Of a DNA stretch of 45,766 bases, positions 24,153-45,766 are shown in pieces. The number at the start of each line of letters is the position of its first letter. Position 1 is the first letter of the stretch. Made by a program: the position numbers and the translations under genes. The notes below the pieces were generated by a model. The model did no database searches. It worked only from the letters and a program-made list of their open reading frames with translations, and was not told where the DNA came from. Source of the stretch: a virus. The DNA lies in IMG/VR virus record IMGVR_UViG_3300031746_000045, positions 1 through 45,766 of that record; one strand, given 5' to 3'.

Positions 24153-25442
<1,290 letters not shown>

Positions 25443-27616: not shown

Positions 27617-28219
27617 TTAGACTGCTGTAGCTTCAATGAAAAGTACCCTCAAGTCAGCCGAGTACGTGGCTCCAGGCCCTGTCGGACCAGTTGGACCAGT
27701 TGGACCATTAAGACCAGTTGCTCCAGTTGGACCAGTTGGACCATTAAGACCAGTTGCTCCAGTTGGACCAGTTGGACCATTAAGACCAGTTGCTCCAGTT
27801 GGACCAGTTGGACCTTCGTTACCTGTAGCTCCAGTTGGACCAGTTGGACCATTAAGACCTGTATCTCCAGTTGGACCAGTTGGACCATTAAGACCAGTTG
27901 CTCCAGTTGGACCAGTTGGACCAACTACGCTCCAAATTGCCCAAGCTGCGCCTTCATACTTGTAATGCTCATCTTCATCTTTAATGTAGGTTATCATTCC
28001 TTCTAAAGGAGCATCAAAGTAAAAATCTGTTGATAAAGTTGGATTTAATATTTTTGCTGTTGCTATTTTTTTATCTTCGCCAGTAAAAATACCTCTACCA
28101 ACCCCAGAAATTAAATATCTATACCCCTTAGCCTCCGAACCTGCTGGAATATTGGCTTTAGTATCGCAAGCTTGCTGCCACTCAAAAGAACCAGCTTCTA
28201 CCACTCTATAAGTTGCCAT
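27617..28219 (-). CDS. Collagen-like fibre protein with DUF2793-like head
   Basis: 200 residues. The N-terminal 100 residues ([44 protein letters not shown]) are paralogous to those of the 279-residue protein downstream. A collagen-like block of Gly-Pro-Thr/Gly-Leu-Asn triplets follows (about 99-183), then a 17-residue end. The ribosome binding site (GAAAGGAG) is good. It probably forms a flexible triple-helical stalk on the virion. It is flanked on both sides by related EDxHD endonuclease genes. Confidence 0.82.
27680..27931. repeat. 36-base tandem repeats encoding collagen-like triplets
   Basis: The coding sequence repeats with a 36-base unit (12 residues: [12 protein letters not shown]), seven units with small changes. 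The units are nearly identical at the DNA level, which suggests recent expansion by slippage or recombination. The open plus-strand frame over the same stretch is only its complement. Confidence 0.8.
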
Positions 28220-40788: not shown

Positions 40789-40811
40789 ACTATTTTAAAA
40801 TAGTTTTGATA

Positions 40812-40850
40812 TAGTTTGTAAATTGTTTAATTTTATAGCTTTATAAACTA
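40812..40850. repeat. 39-base inverted-repeat element, copy 1
   Basis: TAGTTTGTAA, 19 bases, TTATAAACTA. Five such elements occur in the control region, all with exactly 19 bases between arms. This one lies next to promoter copy 3, at the left border of the region. Confidence 0.85.
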
Positions 40851-40861
40851 AAAATTTTATA

Positions 40862-40880
40862 ATGTTCAATAATTGAACAT
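40862..40880. repeat. Perfect palindrome, operator-like
   Basis: ATGTTCAAT and ATTGAACAT are perfect inverted arms around a single A. Such a 19-base dyad is typical of a dimeric helix-turn-helix repressor site. It occurs once, between the first 39-base element and the iterons. Confidence 0.65.
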
Positions 40881-40921
40881 ACTTTGTCAAGATTTGTCTA
40901 ATTTGGCAACTTTTACCAGCG

Positions 40922-41088
40922 TGACAAATTGTCAGAAATTATGACAAATTGTCATAAAAAATGATAAATTGTCACGTGTTTACAAATTGTCACGGCATGA
41001 CAAATTGTCATTTCAAAAAATAGGTTGTTTAATTTCAATATGTTATGAAGCAACTTTACAAATTGTCATAAAATATGACAAATTGTCA
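40922..41088. repeat. Seven palindromic iterons (TGACAAATTGTCA)
   Basis: Copies start at 40922, 40942, 40962, 40980, 40998, 41056 and 41076. Four are the perfect 13-base palindrome; one reads TGATAAATTGTCA and two read TTACAAATTGTCA. Spacing is 18 or 20 bases (about two helical turns) except for one larger gap of 58. TTGGCAAC flanks the cluster on both sides (40904 and 41092). This arrangement is what a cooperative DNA-binding protein needs: a replication initiator, partition protein or repressor. Confidence 0.88.
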
Positions 41089-41268
41089 CGCTTGGCAACC
41101 TAAGAAATAGGCCAGGTTCCACGATGGTTATTGGTGGGGTATTAGCTGCCTTAGTCTTTAAAAGCAATAATGAACCACAATTTAGTTATACATAAGCTCC
41201 AATACATAATAGTTACAAGATATGTAATAACTAGGTCTTTGCGGAGATTGTAGCCCATATTCTACGCA

Positions 41269-41307
41269 TAGTTTATAACTTAGTATATACTATATACTTA
41301 CAAACTA
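41269..41307. repeat. 39-base inverted-repeat element, copy 2
   Basis: TAGTTTATAA, 19 bases, TTACAAACTA. Same geometry as the other four copies. The inner sequence is different except for being AT-rich. Confidence 0.85.
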
Positions 41308-41320
41308 TGAAATATAGAAC

Positions 41321-41352
41321 TTGTCACAAATACTATATACTTTTTGTGACAA
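41321..41352. repeat. Ten-base-pair inverted repeat related to iteron arms
   Basis: TTGTCACAAA and TTTGTGACAA are perfect inverted arms with a 12-base AT-rich loop. The arms contain TTGTCA/TGACAA, the half sites of the iterons, in the opposite order. A short sequence TCTACTGATT follows and recurs at 41568. Confidence 0.6.
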
Positions 41353-41604
41353 TCTACTGATTTTTCCTGGTAAAATTGGATACACTTTAGTGGCTAGAAG
41401 CAATTTCTTAAATAATAGAGCACCTTACCCCTACTTCTATTATAATAATCCAATACAGACCATCCTAGGCTCTAAATAAGGGCATTGTAGAACCATTCCC
41501 CTAAGTAATCAAATATGATAACTAAAGGAAACGAGGATAACCCACATAGCTTATATTATAGGGTAAGTCTACTGATTATTTTGCCAGAATTTGAAATACA
41601 CTTT
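41353..41604. repeat. Two degenerate 36-base direct repeats
   Basis: TCTACTGATT and ATACACTTT occur together at 41353/41380 and at 41568/41596, with the second motif 27 or 28 bases after the first and partly similar sequence between. Related TTACTGAAT motifs occur near 41758 and 42110. They look like remnants of a larger unit that was duplicated with the 39-base elements. Confidence 0.5.
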
Positions 41605-41627
41605 TAGGTCCTTACTGTTTTCCTACA

Positions 41628-41666
41628 TAGTTTGTAAGCCATTCTTATTACATATGTTATAAACTA
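41628..41666. repeat. 39-base inverted-repeat element, copy 3
   Basis: TAGTTTGTAA, 19 bases, TTATAAACTA. It lies 32 bases before the DnaA box at 41699. Confidence 0.85.
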
Positions 41667-41698
41667 TAAAGAATCTTACAAAATTTTTTAGGCTTACC

Positions 41699-41707
41699 TT
41701 ATCCACA
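41699..41707 (+). promoter_or_regulatory. Perfect DnaA box
   Basis: TTATCCACA matches the bacterial DnaA consensus exactly. It is the only perfect copy I found in the control region. Together with iterons and AT-rich stretches it supports an origin of replication that uses host DnaA, but a single 9-base match could be chance. Confidence 0.5.
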
Positions 41708-41946
41708 AGCTGGTTTAATATTTAGCTCCAAATGACGCTAAAAACCAAACGCCATAAATTACTGAATAACCTGCCATAATAGAAAAATTAGAAGAATCAC
41801 TAAAATATCACCGTAAAGAAGCCTAGAACCCAGTCAATATAGGAAAGAAGCAATCCTTGTATGTATCTATACAATTGCTTGTATGAAACGTGCCAGTAAA
41901 GGAAAGGAAAGGAACTTACGCTAACCATTTTGTCTGGGTGGGCTAT

Positions 41947-42051
41947 ATGGTAGACCATTTCGTTGGTCTCAACGATATGGTTATGTGGGTTGTGGTTGCT
42001 GGGTTTTTTGTTGGTTGGGGGGTTTTGGGCTTACCTAGCCAGCTTATATAG
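41947..42051 (+). CDS. Possible 34-residue membrane peptide in GT-rich DNA
   Basis: An ATG-started frame of 34 codons encodes a hydrophobic peptide (VVVAGFFVGWGVLGL in the middle). The strand is very rich in G and T here (about 41985-42035), so hydrophobic Val/Gly/Trp codons may be a by-product of composition. No convincing ribosome binding site. It is the only frame with any appeal between 40618 and 42714. Confidence 0.25.
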   Translation: MVDHFVGLNDMVMWVVVAGFFVGWGVLGLPSQLI

Positions 42052-42053
42052 CA

Positions 42054-42092
42054 TAGTTTGTAACCTATTGTGCCAGTTGGGCTTATGAACTA
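42054..42092. repeat. 39-base inverted-repeat element, copy 4
   Basis: TAGTTTGTAA, 19 bases, TTATGAACTA (one change from the consensus arm). Same spacing as the other copies. Confidence 0.8.
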
Positions 42093-42180
42093 TGGGAAAT
42101 TAGGGTAAATTTACTGAATCGAGCATGTCAAAGCCACCACCCCCAAAATAAGGAAGCCCTTCCCTGGACAAAGGAAGCGT

Positions 42181-42308
42181 TATCTCGCATAACCAATTGA
42201 TATATAACAGGTTACAACATAAGACAAGCGGTCAAGGTAACGCTACCAGGTAGCGGTTTCACCTTGCCATGTATAGGGTTGTATCATTATTAAGGTATAT
42301 GCGAGATA
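42181..42308. other. 128-base nested hairpin, candidate structured RNA or cruciform
   Basis: Four inverted repeats are nested around one centre: TATCTCGCATA/TATGCGAGATA (42181-42191, 42298-42308, perfect 11), TACAAC/GTTGTA (42213, 42278), CAAGGT/ACCTTG (42233, 42261), and CGCTACC/GGTAGCG (42241-42255, perfect 7 around one A). The inner part is unusually GC-rich. It does not look like a tRNA, and no U-run follows. It could be a structured RNA, a single-strand origin or a recombination/packaging site. Confidence 0.65.
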
Positions 42309-42352
42309 GTGGTTTCCTATTTTTCTATTATATAGGTATTAATATATGTATA

Positions 42353-42516
42353 TGCAAACGTGACCAGTAGGCATCCAGTGCAAGCATGACCAGTAGGCAT
42401 CCAGTGCAAACGTGACCAGTAGGCATCCAGTGCAAACGTGACCAGTAGGCATCCAGTGCAAACGTGACCAGTAGGCATCCAGTGCAAACGTGACCAGTAG
42501 GCACCAAGTGCCCTAT
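42353..42516. repeat. 26-base tandem array A, six copies
   Basis: Units start at 42361, 42387, 42413, 42439, 42465 and 42491, each beginning TGACCAGTAGGC and continuing ATCCAGTGCAAACG. Copy 2 opens into a variant junction (GCAAGCATG) and copy 6 ends in GGCACCAAGTGCC, a small hairpin. The array has no unique spacers, so it is not CRISPR. It lies between the nested hairpin and the early promoter. Confidence 0.92.
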
Positions 42517-42536
42517 ATGGAAGGTATTATATAGGG
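42511..42536. repeat. Inverted repeat after array A
   Basis: CCCTATAT and ATATAGGG are perfect 8-base arms with a 10-base loop. It directly follows the hairpin formed by the last array unit. No T-run follows, so terminator function is doubtful. Confidence 0.5.
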
Positions 42537-42595
42537 AAGGATTATATATGGATGTTTTGGATACGTTTATTTTTATCAGTTATAAAATATTTGCA

Positions 42596-42636
42596 AATAG
42601 TTTATAAACTATTGAAGTGTAACAAGTTATAAACTA
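42596..42636. repeat. 39-base inverted-repeat element, copy 5, with overlapping perfect palindrome
   Basis: TAGTTTATAA (42598), 19 bases, TTATAAACTA (42627). The left arm is also part of an 18-base perfect palindrome AATAGTTTATAAACTATT (42596-42613), which gives three arms in 41 bases. It lies 20 bases upstream of the -35 box of the early promoter, a good place for an activator or repressor. Confidence 0.87.
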
Positions 42637-42656
42637 TAAAAATATTCGGTCTGCCA

Positions 42657-42685
42657 TTGACAAGCTGGATTATATGTTTTATAGT
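42657..42685 (+). promoter_or_regulatory. Sigma70-type early promoter
   Basis: TTGACA (42657-42662, perfect), a 17-base spacer and TATAGT (42680-42685, five of six). The -10 overlaps a further TAGTTTAA half site, so a protein binding these arms would compete with RNA polymerase. The first gene starts about 30 bases downstream of the box. Confidence 0.78.
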
Positions 42686-42714
42686 TTAATTGACAGTTAA
42701 GGAAGGATAAGACA

Positions 42715-42855
42715 ATGGAAAATATACTGCAAGACGTACAAAGAACGCGACAAGAAAAAGCCATTCTATTATATAAGGCGTACTACAAAAAAGAGTACGA
42801 CCTTGTATTGTATTGGCATTATGCGATTACCAGCGAGGAGTTGAGAGAAGTTTAA
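42715..42855 (+). CDS. First early gene, small helical protein
   Basis: 46 residues, charged and aromatic (AYYKKEYDLVLYWHYAI), probably two helices. A good ribosome binding site (AAGGAAGGA) lies about 9 bases before the ATG, directly downstream of the sigma70-type promoter. As the promoter-proximal early gene it may act on the host or regulate the adjacent repeats; no family recognised. Confidence 0.7.
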   Translation: MENILQDVQRTRQEKAILLYKAYYKKEYDLVLYWHYAITSEELREV

Positions 42856-42885
42856 TATTATTATTCCCAAAGGGATGATGATAAT

Positions 42886-43242
42886 ATGAGTTATACCTTA
42901 TTTAATATAGTTAAGCATAAAACAGATATAAGAGGATATTGGCTGGATGATACAGGCAAGATTTACAAAGATAATATATCCCTGTTATATCTAGACAATG
43001 ATAATATAGAGGATGCTAAATTTGACCTATTTAATAAGGGCGAATTGAGTATATTTTATAAAGATAATTTATGCGCTATAATTGAGGATGCGCAAGGCAA
43101 GAGGACACATCTATATAATCAAAAACTGTTAAGGTTTAAGAAAATATCCGCTGGACTATTTAAGACTATGCTAAAAGATTATAAAGGCTTTACAGTATAT
43201 AAGCATAAAGGATATTATTTAATAGAGGTATGGCAAGCATAA
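42886..43242 (+). CDS. Small early protein, unknown
   Basis: 118 residues, rich in Lys, Asp and Tyr, mixed beta and alpha (RGYWLDDTGKIYKDN opening, YKGFTVYKHKGYYLIEVW end). The start has AAAGGG about 14 bases upstream, so initiation may be weak. Function unknown. Confidence 0.7.
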   Translation: MSYTLFNIVKHKTDIRGYWLDDTGKIYKDNISLLYLDNDNIEDAKFDLFNKGELSIFYKDNLCAIIEDAQGKRTHLYNQKLLRFKKISAGLFKTMLKDYKGFTVYKHKGYYLIEVWQA

Positions 43243-43254
43243 GGATATAATCCC

Positions 43255-43422
43255 ATGAATAAGTATAGAGTAAAATTATATTGCAAAGGTAAACTATATA
43301 ATTTTACGATAACAGATGTATGTTATGCGGATAATGTTTTTCAGGCCAAAGATATTATAATCAATAAATATAAAGCCTATCATAACATAGTTAAGGATAA
43401 AACATTAATCTATAAGGTATAA
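43255..43422 (+). CDS. Small early protein, unknown
   Basis: 55 residues. It starts in the context TATAATCCC-ATGAATAA, which is repeated almost exactly at the next gene (43427), and both proteins begin with a similar Met-Asn-Lys/Glu-Tyr-Arg sequence. This suggests the two gene starts were duplicated. Predicted beta-alpha; no family recognised. Confidence 0.62.
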   Translation: MNKYRVKLYCKGKLYNFTITDVCYADNVFQAKDIIINKYKAYHNIVKDKTLIYKV

Positions 43423-43426
43423 TCCC

Positions 43427-43771
43427 ATGAATGAATACAGAATAAGCTATAATCCCTATACTAACGAATACATAAGCGGTCAAGCTTCCCATGCTATACA
43501 ACTATATAATAAGGGAAGGCAAGCGGCCTATGATGATTTTATAAGAGGTATTATATTAGATGATGTATTGTATTTAAGGGTGTATTATCCCTATGAGGAT
43601 ATTGGCACCTTGACAAACGTTAAACTATATCAGGCAAGCTTTGCATTATTAAAGGATAATACTAACAATATATTGAAGGTGATAAAAGACAAGGAAAACA
43701 TCACTATAAAAGATATAAGGTATAATGTAGACAATGACCTATTAAGGGGTTTAAAACTAGCTAACATATAA
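43427..43771 (+). CDS. Small early protein, unknown
   Basis: 114 residues, mixed alpha/beta, starting 4 bases after the previous stop in the same TATAATCCC-ATG context. The N-terminus (NEYRISYNPYTNEYISG) resembles the start of the preceding protein. No motif recognised. Confidence 0.7.
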   Translation: MNEYRISYNPYTNEYISGQASHAIQLYNKGRQAAYDDFIRGIILDDVLYLRVYYPYEDIGTLTNVKLYQASFALLKDNTNNILKVIKDKENITIKDIRYNVDNDLLRGLKLANI

Positions 43772-43783
43772 GAGAGGTGCATT

Positions 43784-44029
43784 ATGAATAATATTATAGT
43801 CAATGATATACTTGACAAGCGCAAAGGCCACTATTGCCATGCGTTAGAGGTTAATGATGTTTATGAATTGCAAGCTTGTATTGAGGCCTTATATGATGAG
43901 CTTATACGAGATTATACAGTTGAGGCTATACTTGTTTTCTTTGATACTATTGAACTGTATTGTTTAAATGATATTAATGAAGAGGAAGTACATAGTTTTA
44001 ATATTAAGGATTATATATTATCATTATAG
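43784..44029 (+). CDS. Small acidic early protein
   Basis: 81 residues, acidic (about 18 Asp/Glu), alpha/beta. Small acidic early proteins often inhibit host enzymes or mimic DNA, but nothing specific can be assigned. The ribosome binding site is AGAGGTG. The stop codon lies inside the first unit of tandem array B. Confidence 0.7.
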   Translation: MNNIIVNDILDKRKGHYCHALEVNDVYELQACIEALYDELIRDYTVEAILVFFDTIELYCLNDINEEEVHSFNIKDYILSL

Positions 44030-44129
44030 GCCAAGCTGGTCATGCTAGGCCATAGGCCAAGCTGGTCATACTAGGCCATAGGCCAAGCTGGTCATACTAG
44101 GCCATAGGCCAAGCTGGTCATGCTAGGCC
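44026..44129. repeat. 26-base tandem array B, four copies
   Basis: Units start at 44026, 44052, 44078 and 44104: ATAGGCCAAGCTGG followed by TCATACTAGGCC (copies 1 and 4 have TCATGCTAGGCC). Each can form a hairpin of GGCC/GGCC plus AGC/GCT. The array is GC-rich in AT-rich DNA, begins at the stop codon of the 81-residue gene, and is 18/26 identical to the reverse complement of array C. Confidence 0.92.
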
Positions 44130-44167
44130 TACTTAATACTTAAGAAAAACAATACTTAATACTTAAG
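44130..44167. repeat. Fifteen-base direct repeat before a small gene
   Basis: TACTTAATACTTAAG occurs at 44130-44144 and 44153-44167, the second copy running into the ribosome binding site of the next gene. Similar TACTTTAAA sequences precede later genes (near 44490 and 44830). Confidence 0.6.
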
Positions 44168-44179
44168 GGAGGTGAAAAC

Positions 44180-44281
44180 ATGACAAATAAAATAAAGAGG
44201 TGTAAACTTTGGGCGCAATTTTCTAAAGGCCAAAGGATAACTAGGATAATCAGGGGATATTTTAGAATCTTAATAGGATAA
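44180..44281 (+). CDS. Very small basic protein
   Basis: 33 residues with 10 Lys/Arg, probably an amphipathic helix. The ribosome binding site GGGAGGTG is excellent (44168-44175), which is the main support. A nucleic-acid- or membrane-binding peptide is possible; unproven. Confidence 0.55.
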   Translation: MTNKIKRCKLWAQFSKGQRITRIIRGYFRILIG

Positions 44282-44317
44282 TATTAATAACATCTTAAAT
44301 AATCGGGAGGTGATGCC

Positions 44318-44479
44318 ATGCAATACTTAAATCACGCTATATCTTTATATCAGGATAATGAAAGGGTTAAATCTTTAAAGATTGATTATGCTTTATCAGA
44401 AGATAAACAAGAAAAACTAGCAATAAAATTATCCCTCTTAAATCTTGGCCATAGGATAAAACAAGAAAATCAAGAGTAA
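44318..44479 (+). CDS. Small helical protein, unknown
   Basis: 53 residues, charged, probably helical. It begins at ATG 44318 behind GGGAGGTGAT. It lies in the same small-gene cluster with short spacers. No family recognised. Confidence 0.62.
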   Translation: MQYLNHAISLYQDNERVKSLKIDYALSEDKQEKLAIKLSLLNLGHRIKQENQE

Positions 44480-44512
44480 CTTAATAACAATACTTTAAAT
44501 GGAGGTGTTAAA

Positions 44513-44830
44513 ATGTATTCATTAGAAACTATGAAATCAATACAGGATGAGCATACCGTTAAGGCCAAAAAACAAAAATTAACGCCATATATCGCCCAAT
44601 GTGATGAGGATGAGGGCGTTTTTAAAATGCCTTTTATGGGATATTATTTGCCTAAAGGCTTTGAGGTAACAGGCAATCTATACTTTGTAGACAATTCAGG
44701 CTTTGGGCGTGAATCAGAGCCCGCCTTAACAGCGAATCAGTTTTTAACAAAGGTTAAAAAAGGCTTTGCCTATGGTATCTATGAGGCTGGACAATCCCAA
44801 GTATACATCCAAGAGTATAGAGTTTTATAA
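44513..44830 (+). CDS. Small early protein, unknown
   Basis: 105 residues. Predicted beta-rich with a central PFMGYYLPKGFEVTGNLYFVDNSGFG segment, part of which (PKGFEV) recalls small phage proteins with an SH3-like barrel. The ribosome binding site GGAGGTG is strong. Function unknown. Confidence 0.72.
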   Translation: MYSLETMKSIQDEHTVKAKKQKLTPYIAQCDEDEGVFKMPFMGYYLPKGFEVTGNLYFVDNSGFGRESEPALTANQFLTKVKKGFAYGIYEAGQSQVYIQEYRVL

Positions 44831-44852
44831 TACTTTAAAAGGATATACTCCA

Positions 44853-44948
44853 ATGAAATATATAATCATCTTTACAATAGGCATATTGTTATTTTATGGT
44901 ACAATGTTATTTAAGGCCGTGCAGGTTATTTATAGCATAAGACTATAA
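44853..44948 (+). CDS. Single-pass membrane miniprotein
   Basis: 31 residues, almost entirely one hydrophobic helix (IIIFTIGILLFYGTMLF). A longer frame reaches back to 44766 through the preceding gene, but the ATG at 44853 has AAAAGGA upstream and gives a clean membrane peptide. A lysis or exclusion role is possible but not shown. Confidence 0.55.
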   Translation: MKYIIIFTIGILLFYGTMLFKAVQVIYSIRL

Positions 44949-44990
44949 TATAGAGAAGGCCTAAACTTAAATAAAGGAAAGGATAAAAAC

Positions 44991-45182
44991 ATGGTAACAT
45001 ATACAGAAGTATATTCAAATAAACAAGGTATAAAAGATATATCTGCTAGCAGGTACTTTTATCTTTCAGAATGTATAGCTTGTAAAACTGAAAGAAAACT
45101 AAACAAAAATAAGTATAGTTTTATGAGAAAATACCAAAAACAAAACTATGATTATATAGTATATAATCCCAATAAGCTTTAA
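44991..45182 (+). CDS. Small basic early protein
   Basis: 63 residues, basic, with a CIAC pair and many Tyr/Lys. The ribosome binding site (AAAGGAAAGGA) is good. The single CxxC could bind metal only as a dimer. No family recognised. Confidence 0.6.
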   Translation: MVTYTEVYSNKQGIKDISASRYFYLSECIACKTERKLNKNKYSFMRKYQKQNYDYIVYNPNKL

Positions 45183-45209
45183 AAAACATAAACAAAGAGA
45201 GGTTATACC

Positions 45210-45419
45210 ATGCTAGTAGATAAAATTATCGCTTTTGAATCAGGGGAATTAGATAATGAGGGAATCCTTGAATTATTTGCGGAATTGATAAAAACTGGAC
45301 AAGCTTGGAGTTTACAAGGGTGTTATGGTAGAACAGCGCAAGGCCTCATTGATAAAGGCCTTATTGATAGGCAAGGCGTTATTAATTGGGATGTGTATCA
45401 AGAGTTATCTTGTCAATAA
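45210..45419 (+). CDS. Conserved phage miniprotein (LQGxYGR type)
   Basis: 69 residues. The pattern FESGELDNEGILELFAELI followed by TGQAWSLQGCYGRTAQGLI is one I recognise from small hypothetical proteins in many unrelated phages. It is probably a helical early protein. The function of the family is not known to me. Its spread suggests exchange of such genes between phages of different hosts. Confidence 0.8.
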   Translation: MLVDKIIAFESGELDNEGILELFAELIKTGQAWSLQGCYGRTAQGLIDKGLIDRQGVINWDVYQELSCQ

Positions 45420-45448
45420 AAAACAAAAACAACAAAAGATAAAACACT

Positions 45449-45607
45449 ATGCAAACATACAAGATTATACGTTTCTTTTATCCAAGTACAGGCCTAGAAA
45501 ATAGGGTAATATTAGAGGGCGTAACACTAGAACAGGCACAAGAACACTGTCAAGATGACGCTACCAAAGAAGAAGGCGTATACTTTGACGGGTATACAGC
45601 CGAATAG
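45449..45607 (+). CDS. Conserved phage miniprotein (TLEQAQEHC type)
   Basis: 52 residues. The layout YKIIRFFYPS, then ILEGVTLEQAQEHCQDD and a C-terminal FDGYTAE, matches a small protein widespread in actinobacterial and other phages (usually ending in WFDGY). It lies next to the LQGxYGR gene. No clear ribosome binding site before the ATG. Function of the family unknown. Confidence 0.75.
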   Translation: MQTYKIIRFFYPSTGLENRVILEGVTLEQAQEHCQDDATKEEGVYFDGYTAE

Positions 45608-45613
45608 GCTTTA

Positions 45614-45766
45614 CTTGTCCGGCTTGCCCTGTAGGCTAGCTTGTCCGGCTTGCCCTGTAGGCTAGCTTGTCCGGCTTGCCCTGTAGGCTAGCTTGTCCGG
45701 CTTGCCCTGTAGGCTAGCTTGTCCGGCTTGCCCTGTAGGCTAGCTTGTCCGGCTTGCCCTGTAGGC
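45614..45766. repeat. 26-base tandem array C, at least six copies, runs out of the window
   Basis: Units start at 45614, 45640, 45666, 45692, 45718 and 45744: CTTGTCCGGCTTGC followed by CCTGTAGGCTAG. The five full copies are identical and the sixth is cut by the window end. It begins 7 bases after the last stop codon. Its reverse complement aligns with array B at 18 of 26 positions. Confidence 0.93.

Follow-up and report, generated by a model that had tools for sequence, protein, structure and literature searches.

Three arrays of related 26-bp quasi-palindromic units in the noncoding DNA of a phage

Results

Three tandem arrays with a 26-base period

The window analysed here is a whole IMG/VR record (IMGVR_UViG_3300031746_000045; 45,766 bases), the right end of which falls inside the last of three tandem repeat arrays. 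An initial annotation had described these arrays, here A, B and C, as sharing a 26-base period, and Tandem Repeats Finder (TRF) recovered all three with exactly that period. The copies were also used to build a covariance model, R1. The arrays and their nearest features are listed below.

42353..42511, + strand: array A, 6.1 copies of TGCAAACGTGACCAGTAGGCATCCAG, period 26, 95% matches (TRF; R1 covariance model hits)
42657..42685, + strand: promoter-like TTGACA-17-TATAGT about 150 bp downstream of A, before the small-gene cluster (consensus match only)
43784..44029, + strand: 81-aa ORF directly upstream of array B, homologue DAL_7 of Psychrobacter phage D'Alembert (31% identity)
44026..44129, + strand: array B, 4.0 copies of ATAGGCCAAGCTGGTCATRCTAGGCC, period 26, 97% matches (TRF)
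45449..45607, + strand: 52-aa ORF directly upstream of array C, homologue gp66 of Rhodococcus phage Tonitrus
45603..45629 (approximate), - strand: diverged left-edge copy of array C, R1 model hit of 19.9 bits
45614-45766, - strand: array C as a whole, 5.9 copies, period 26, 100% matches, reaching the contig end (TRF)
45630..45766, - strand: perfect copies of array C, given-strand unit GGGCAAGCCGGACAAGCTAGCCTACA, also written CTTGTCCGGCTTGCCCTGTAGGCTAG (TRF; R1 model)

Because the contig stops inside a perfect repeat, the copy number of C is a lower bound (at least 5.9 perfect copies plus the edge copy). Copy 2 of array A reads TGCAAGCATGACC... and its final copy ...GGCACCAAG; in array B the outer copies (1 and 4) have G at the variable base R, and the inner two (2 and 3) have A. 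As had been noted, the arrays are GC-rich islands in AT-rich DNA (54% GC in A, 56% in B and 61% in C, against about 33% genome-wide). The proposal that copies are homogenised within arrays also holds: the interiors are uniform, and diverged copies are found at the edges of A and C. A CRISPR array, already dismissed in the initial annotation, is ruled out by the absence of unique spacers between the abutting copies. The starts of successive arrays are 1673 and 1578 bp apart, near-equal distances that amount to two intervals only. When the window was scanned with R1, the matches better than E=0.1 were array copies only, and a lag scan with periods of 15-60, run across the whole window, gave no further strong array outside coding repeats, the sole other strong tandem signal being period 18/27/36 repeats within tail/fibre genes. 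Collagen-like coding repeats (period 9/36) lie in the tail/fibre genes at 24554-25228 and 27684-27923.

Position of the arrays relative to genes

Both B and C begin at the TAG of an upstream ORF, in agreement with the initial annotation; ORF 43784-44029 takes its stop codon from the first TAG of B, and the TAG stop of ORF 45449-45607 is overlapped by the diverged edge copy of C. The C-terminus of DAL_7 falls within about one residue of the end of the first ORF, and Tonitrus gp66 terminates at the same residue as the second. The two ORFs therefore have natural C-termini and the arrays are extragenic; truncation of the upstream genes by the arrays is ruled out by these shared end points. Recoding of TAG as Q, which would make the arrays coding, was also rejected, as TAG ORFs are mostly little extended and 26 is not divisible by 3. 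Separately, stop usage in the window is skewed, 0 of 53 non-overlapping ORFs ending in TGA (44 TAA, 9 TAG); TGA stops do occur in a sister contig and in a relative.

The noncoding region around array A measures 2.2 kb and separates leftward structural genes from rightward small genes. It is near the cumulative GC-skew minimum and is a possible origin; parts of it are about 80% identical in the relative L004. Four to five elements of 42-51 bases with the form ATAGTTTRTAAC-N18-20-GTTATAAACTAT are spread across it (40804-42640). About six TGACAAATTGTCA-type palindromes, partly 18-20 bp apart, are found upstream of the portal gene (40917-41088) and also in L004; by its sequence this looks like a binding cluster for a regulator or for replication.

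No terminator-like site was found near the arrays, no tRNA or Rfam family in the window, and no toxin family among the ORFs neighbouring the arrays (Pfam, PADLOC). With neither terminator-like site nor toxin gene nearby, the arrays do not seem to belong to a type III toxin-antitoxin locus. A related idea is that the arrays produce RNA decoys of host defence, in the manner of phage TE, which expands pseudo-ToxI repeats and so neutralises ToxN (PMC5449768). Phages are known to expand short tandem repeats that mimic antitoxins (PMC5449768; PMC5086642), and the arrays resemble these in being short, expandable tandem repeats in the noncoding DNA of a phage. The decoy explanation is nevertheless very improbable; the ToxI-family repeats given in these papers are 34-36 nt long against the 26 nt and simple dyad seen here, type III antitoxins form pseudoknots and have a terminator and then the gene for the toxin behind them (PMC5086642), and three diverged forms of a single decoy would not be expected.

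Relatedness of the three units

The units were aligned with free rotation, on either strand, and scored against shuffles. Reverse-complemented C matched B at 18 of 26 positions, the same count as reported initially (mono-shuffle p=0.0002), or at 19 of 26 using the G-variant copies of B. It had been stated beforehand that a B-C similarity no better than that of shuffled units would count against their relationship; 0 of 3000 shuffles reached the observed score. The similarity of A to C is weaker (16 of 26, p=0.013). The motif CTGGTCA, previously noted as common to A and B, is indeed present in both, but this pair alone is not significant against shuffles (p=0.26-0.27). For the three units jointly, no shuffle out of 1500 reached the three-way score. 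The best common register (A+, B+, C-) is TGCAAACGTGACCAGTAGGCATCCAG / GCCAAGCTGGTCATGCTAGGCCATAG / GGCAAGCCGGACAAGCTAGCCTACAG, in which the three arrays agree in 8 of 26 columns. Judged by these alignments, the A, B and C units are descended from a single ancestral unit, to which A is joined less strongly than B and C are to each other. The description of the arrays as inverted relatives stands in that C is best read inverted to A and B, but this follows in part from the quasi-palindromic nature of the units; by eye, a gapped plus-strand alignment of B and C is nearly equal to the inverted one. Reading C as inverted is therefore the better-scoring choice, not a certain one.

A shared imperfect dyad

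In the common register all three units contain a 21-base imperfect dyad with the layout 3-1-3-7-3-1-3; the arms are TGC-A-AAC-N7-GTA-G-GCA in A, GCC-A-AGC-N7-GCT-A-GGC in B and GGC-A-AGC-N7-GCT-A-GCC in C. The 26-bp unit thus consists of two 7-bp arms with one mismatch, a 7-bp centre and a 5-bp linker. Of the dyad pairs, 17/18 are Watson-Crick, a level equalled by 0 of 4000 shuffled trios even with a free choice of centre and the best six offsets, and pair counting gave 91.8% of cells paired against 16-33% with the partner slid. Changes on both sides are seen in three of the seven dyad pairs. The layout had already been noticed when it was tested, on three independent array families, and its significance relies on the G-variant copies of B; for the A-variant copies p=0.07 in the any-centre test. 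On this sequence evidence A, B and C are one family of quasi-palindromic 26-bp units, a conclusion that is only suggestive if the A-variant of B is used. Choosing an RNA strand from variants within arrays was tried and abandoned, because A and B contradict each other on which strand keeps the pairs.

A dyad of this kind could be a site for a dimeric DNA-binding protein, for instance a repressor, a replication initiator or a factor of the centromere type. Each unit would then be a single operator that has CNARC as its half-site and arms separated by 7 bp. All six arms have C at positions 3 and 7 and a purine at position 6, and five of the six have A at position 5. Array A, moreover, shares its noncoding region between divergent gene blocks with TGACAAATTGTCA and ATAGTTTATAAC repeats, and its position near the skew minimum recalls the iterons and centromere arrays known from plasmids and phages, which are likewise short direct tandem repeats in noncoding DNA. 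Another period-26 array, of TGTCGTCGNTCGACGACA-type palindromes, lies in noncoding DNA of a different record (L038 7805-7901) and from its sequence is probably an operator cluster. Against this, a period of 26 is about 2.5 helical turns and would place adjacent sites on opposite faces of the helix. With no more than 8 of 26 columns constant, unit sequence differs between arrays, and the outer pairs vary yet stay complementary. Two of the arrays are positioned behind genes. Furthermore, no ParB_N domain was found in the records examined, which cover part of the phage genome, and no initiator or ParB is linked to the arrays. Binding sites of this type are accordingly possible but unlikely.

Predicted RNA folding

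In a scan of predicted folding energy on the + strand, 104-nt windows over C and B took ranks 1-5 of 1757, their energies lying between -40 and -45 kcal/mol where the mean was -13; the predicted folding of array A is weak. Tiled units did not, however, fold better than tiled shuffled units (p about 0.18 for B, 0.12-0.22 for C and about 0.8 for A). The predicted stability of B and C is therefore largely a matter of GC content, and the case for structure rests on the shared, compensated dyad.

Relatives and database searches

The relative L004 shares about 80% DNA identity in common parts and is collinear to about 41.7 kb. It has no array A at the corresponding site, and the genes flanking B are also missing. 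Because a relative at this identity has none, the arrays look recent in this lineage. Neither a 64.8-kb contig from the same sample nor a 35.8-kb contig of the same phage (99.7-100% identical in the overlap) contained a period-26 array or a convincing match to R1; the coverage of the 35.8-kb contig excludes the array region, so that it is uninformative on A, B and C themselves.

Exact unit patterns had no match in the rest of IMG/VR. A combined B/C pattern gave none there and three single chance-level hits in a genome collection of 84,980 species. A tandem-core pattern gave 22 hits in IMG/VR, of which 20 were non-repeats and the others a two-copy repeat (L048) and an unrelated pair of arrays (L036). 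Searches for similar DNA among phage records returned nothing or chance-level matches only. No other record with these arrays was found by these searches, and literature searches for phage repeats of 26 bp, or for extragenic palindromes of phages, yielded no matching account. The L036 arrays lie in an unrelated GC-rich viral contig at 448-531 and 5156-5242, the latter between divergent genes, and their units convincingly resemble neither each other nor A, B or C. Several period-26 arrays are therefore not unique to this phage.

These results bear on a third explanation, that the arrays are functionless neutral minisatellites, GC-rich and palindrome-prone units grown by replication slippage or unequal recombination. 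Like VNTR minisatellites the arrays are lineage-specific, with homogeneous interiors and diverged edges; their folding is no better than that of shuffled units, a related phage has a UvsX-like recombinase, and the two mutually unrelated arrays of L036 indicate that such arrays can arise separately. Chance growth would not, on the other hand, be expected to give diverged arrays of a single family at three noncoding sites, all with a common dyad layout and two-sided compensations, nor two arrays that begin exactly at natural stop codons. Neutral origin is therefore rather doubtful, and slightly less probable than protein-binding sites.

Discussion

Repeated noncoding DNA is usually scarce in phage genomes. 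The explanation that is tentatively preferred here, at somewhat less than an even chance, is that the arrays act at the RNA level, as tandem REP-like hairpins at the 3' ends of upstream messages; this model is placed slightly ahead of protein-binding DNA sites and of neutral minisatellites. One family of 26-bp quasi-palindromic units would have been copied, by a mechanism that we infer, to at least three extragenic sites of the phage. Each site would then have been expanded and homogenised locally into a tandem array by slippage or unequal recombination, a step suggested by interiors that are uniform and edges that have diverged; the related phage has a gene for a UvsX-like recombinase. Arrays B and C start at the stops of co-directional small genes. 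Their transcripts, if made, would give some of the most stable folds in this AT-rich genome, and could protect the 3' ends of the upstream messages or define them. Array A would be situated in a leader or inter-operon region.

REPs are extragenic palindromes of 20-40 bp that carry a GTAG or CGTC tag and are located mainly downstream of coding regions (PMC3733652); they are tied to TnpAREP/RAYT transposases (PMC8266576). The 21-base dyad in a 26-bp unit falls within this size range, and the arrays share with REPs and BIMEs short imperfect palindromes with a stem mismatch, clustered and mainly behind genes. The REP tag is unpaired and stands at one end of the palindrome; the phage unit contains (G/A)TAGGC on the + strand, with GTAG in A and C and ATAG in B, the GTAG of A being inside the right dyad arm. 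The phage arrays differ in being direct head-to-tail tandems without spacers, and in a phage. Moreover, three array sites were found, all in the window, with no chromosomal family, and the RAYT/Y1 transposase PF01797 was absent from the window, the sister contig and two relative contigs (with a positive control), a search to be read knowing that part of the phage genome is unseen and that the transposase might be host-encoded. For lack of both dispersal and transposase, the units are not classed as REPs. A broader version of the hairpin model, in which a REP-like extragenic palindrome family lives and spreads in the phage, its insertions expanding and evolving in concert under selection on the hairpin or dyad and not on the letters, is more speculative and would be unlikely on present evidence.

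An extragenic palindromic array family with concerted evolution and a conserved layout in one phage would be a small, tractable system in which to ask whether repeats act via RNA, via DNA-binding proteins or not at all, as for bacterial REPs, and would also bear on how repeats might spread without a transposase of their own.

At the opposite end of the record, the window opens (1-1412) within an intein of the terminase large subunit, which includes a LAGLIDADG-like endonuclease region; in the sister contig (L021 8501-11002) the 833-aa ORF is complete and in frame.
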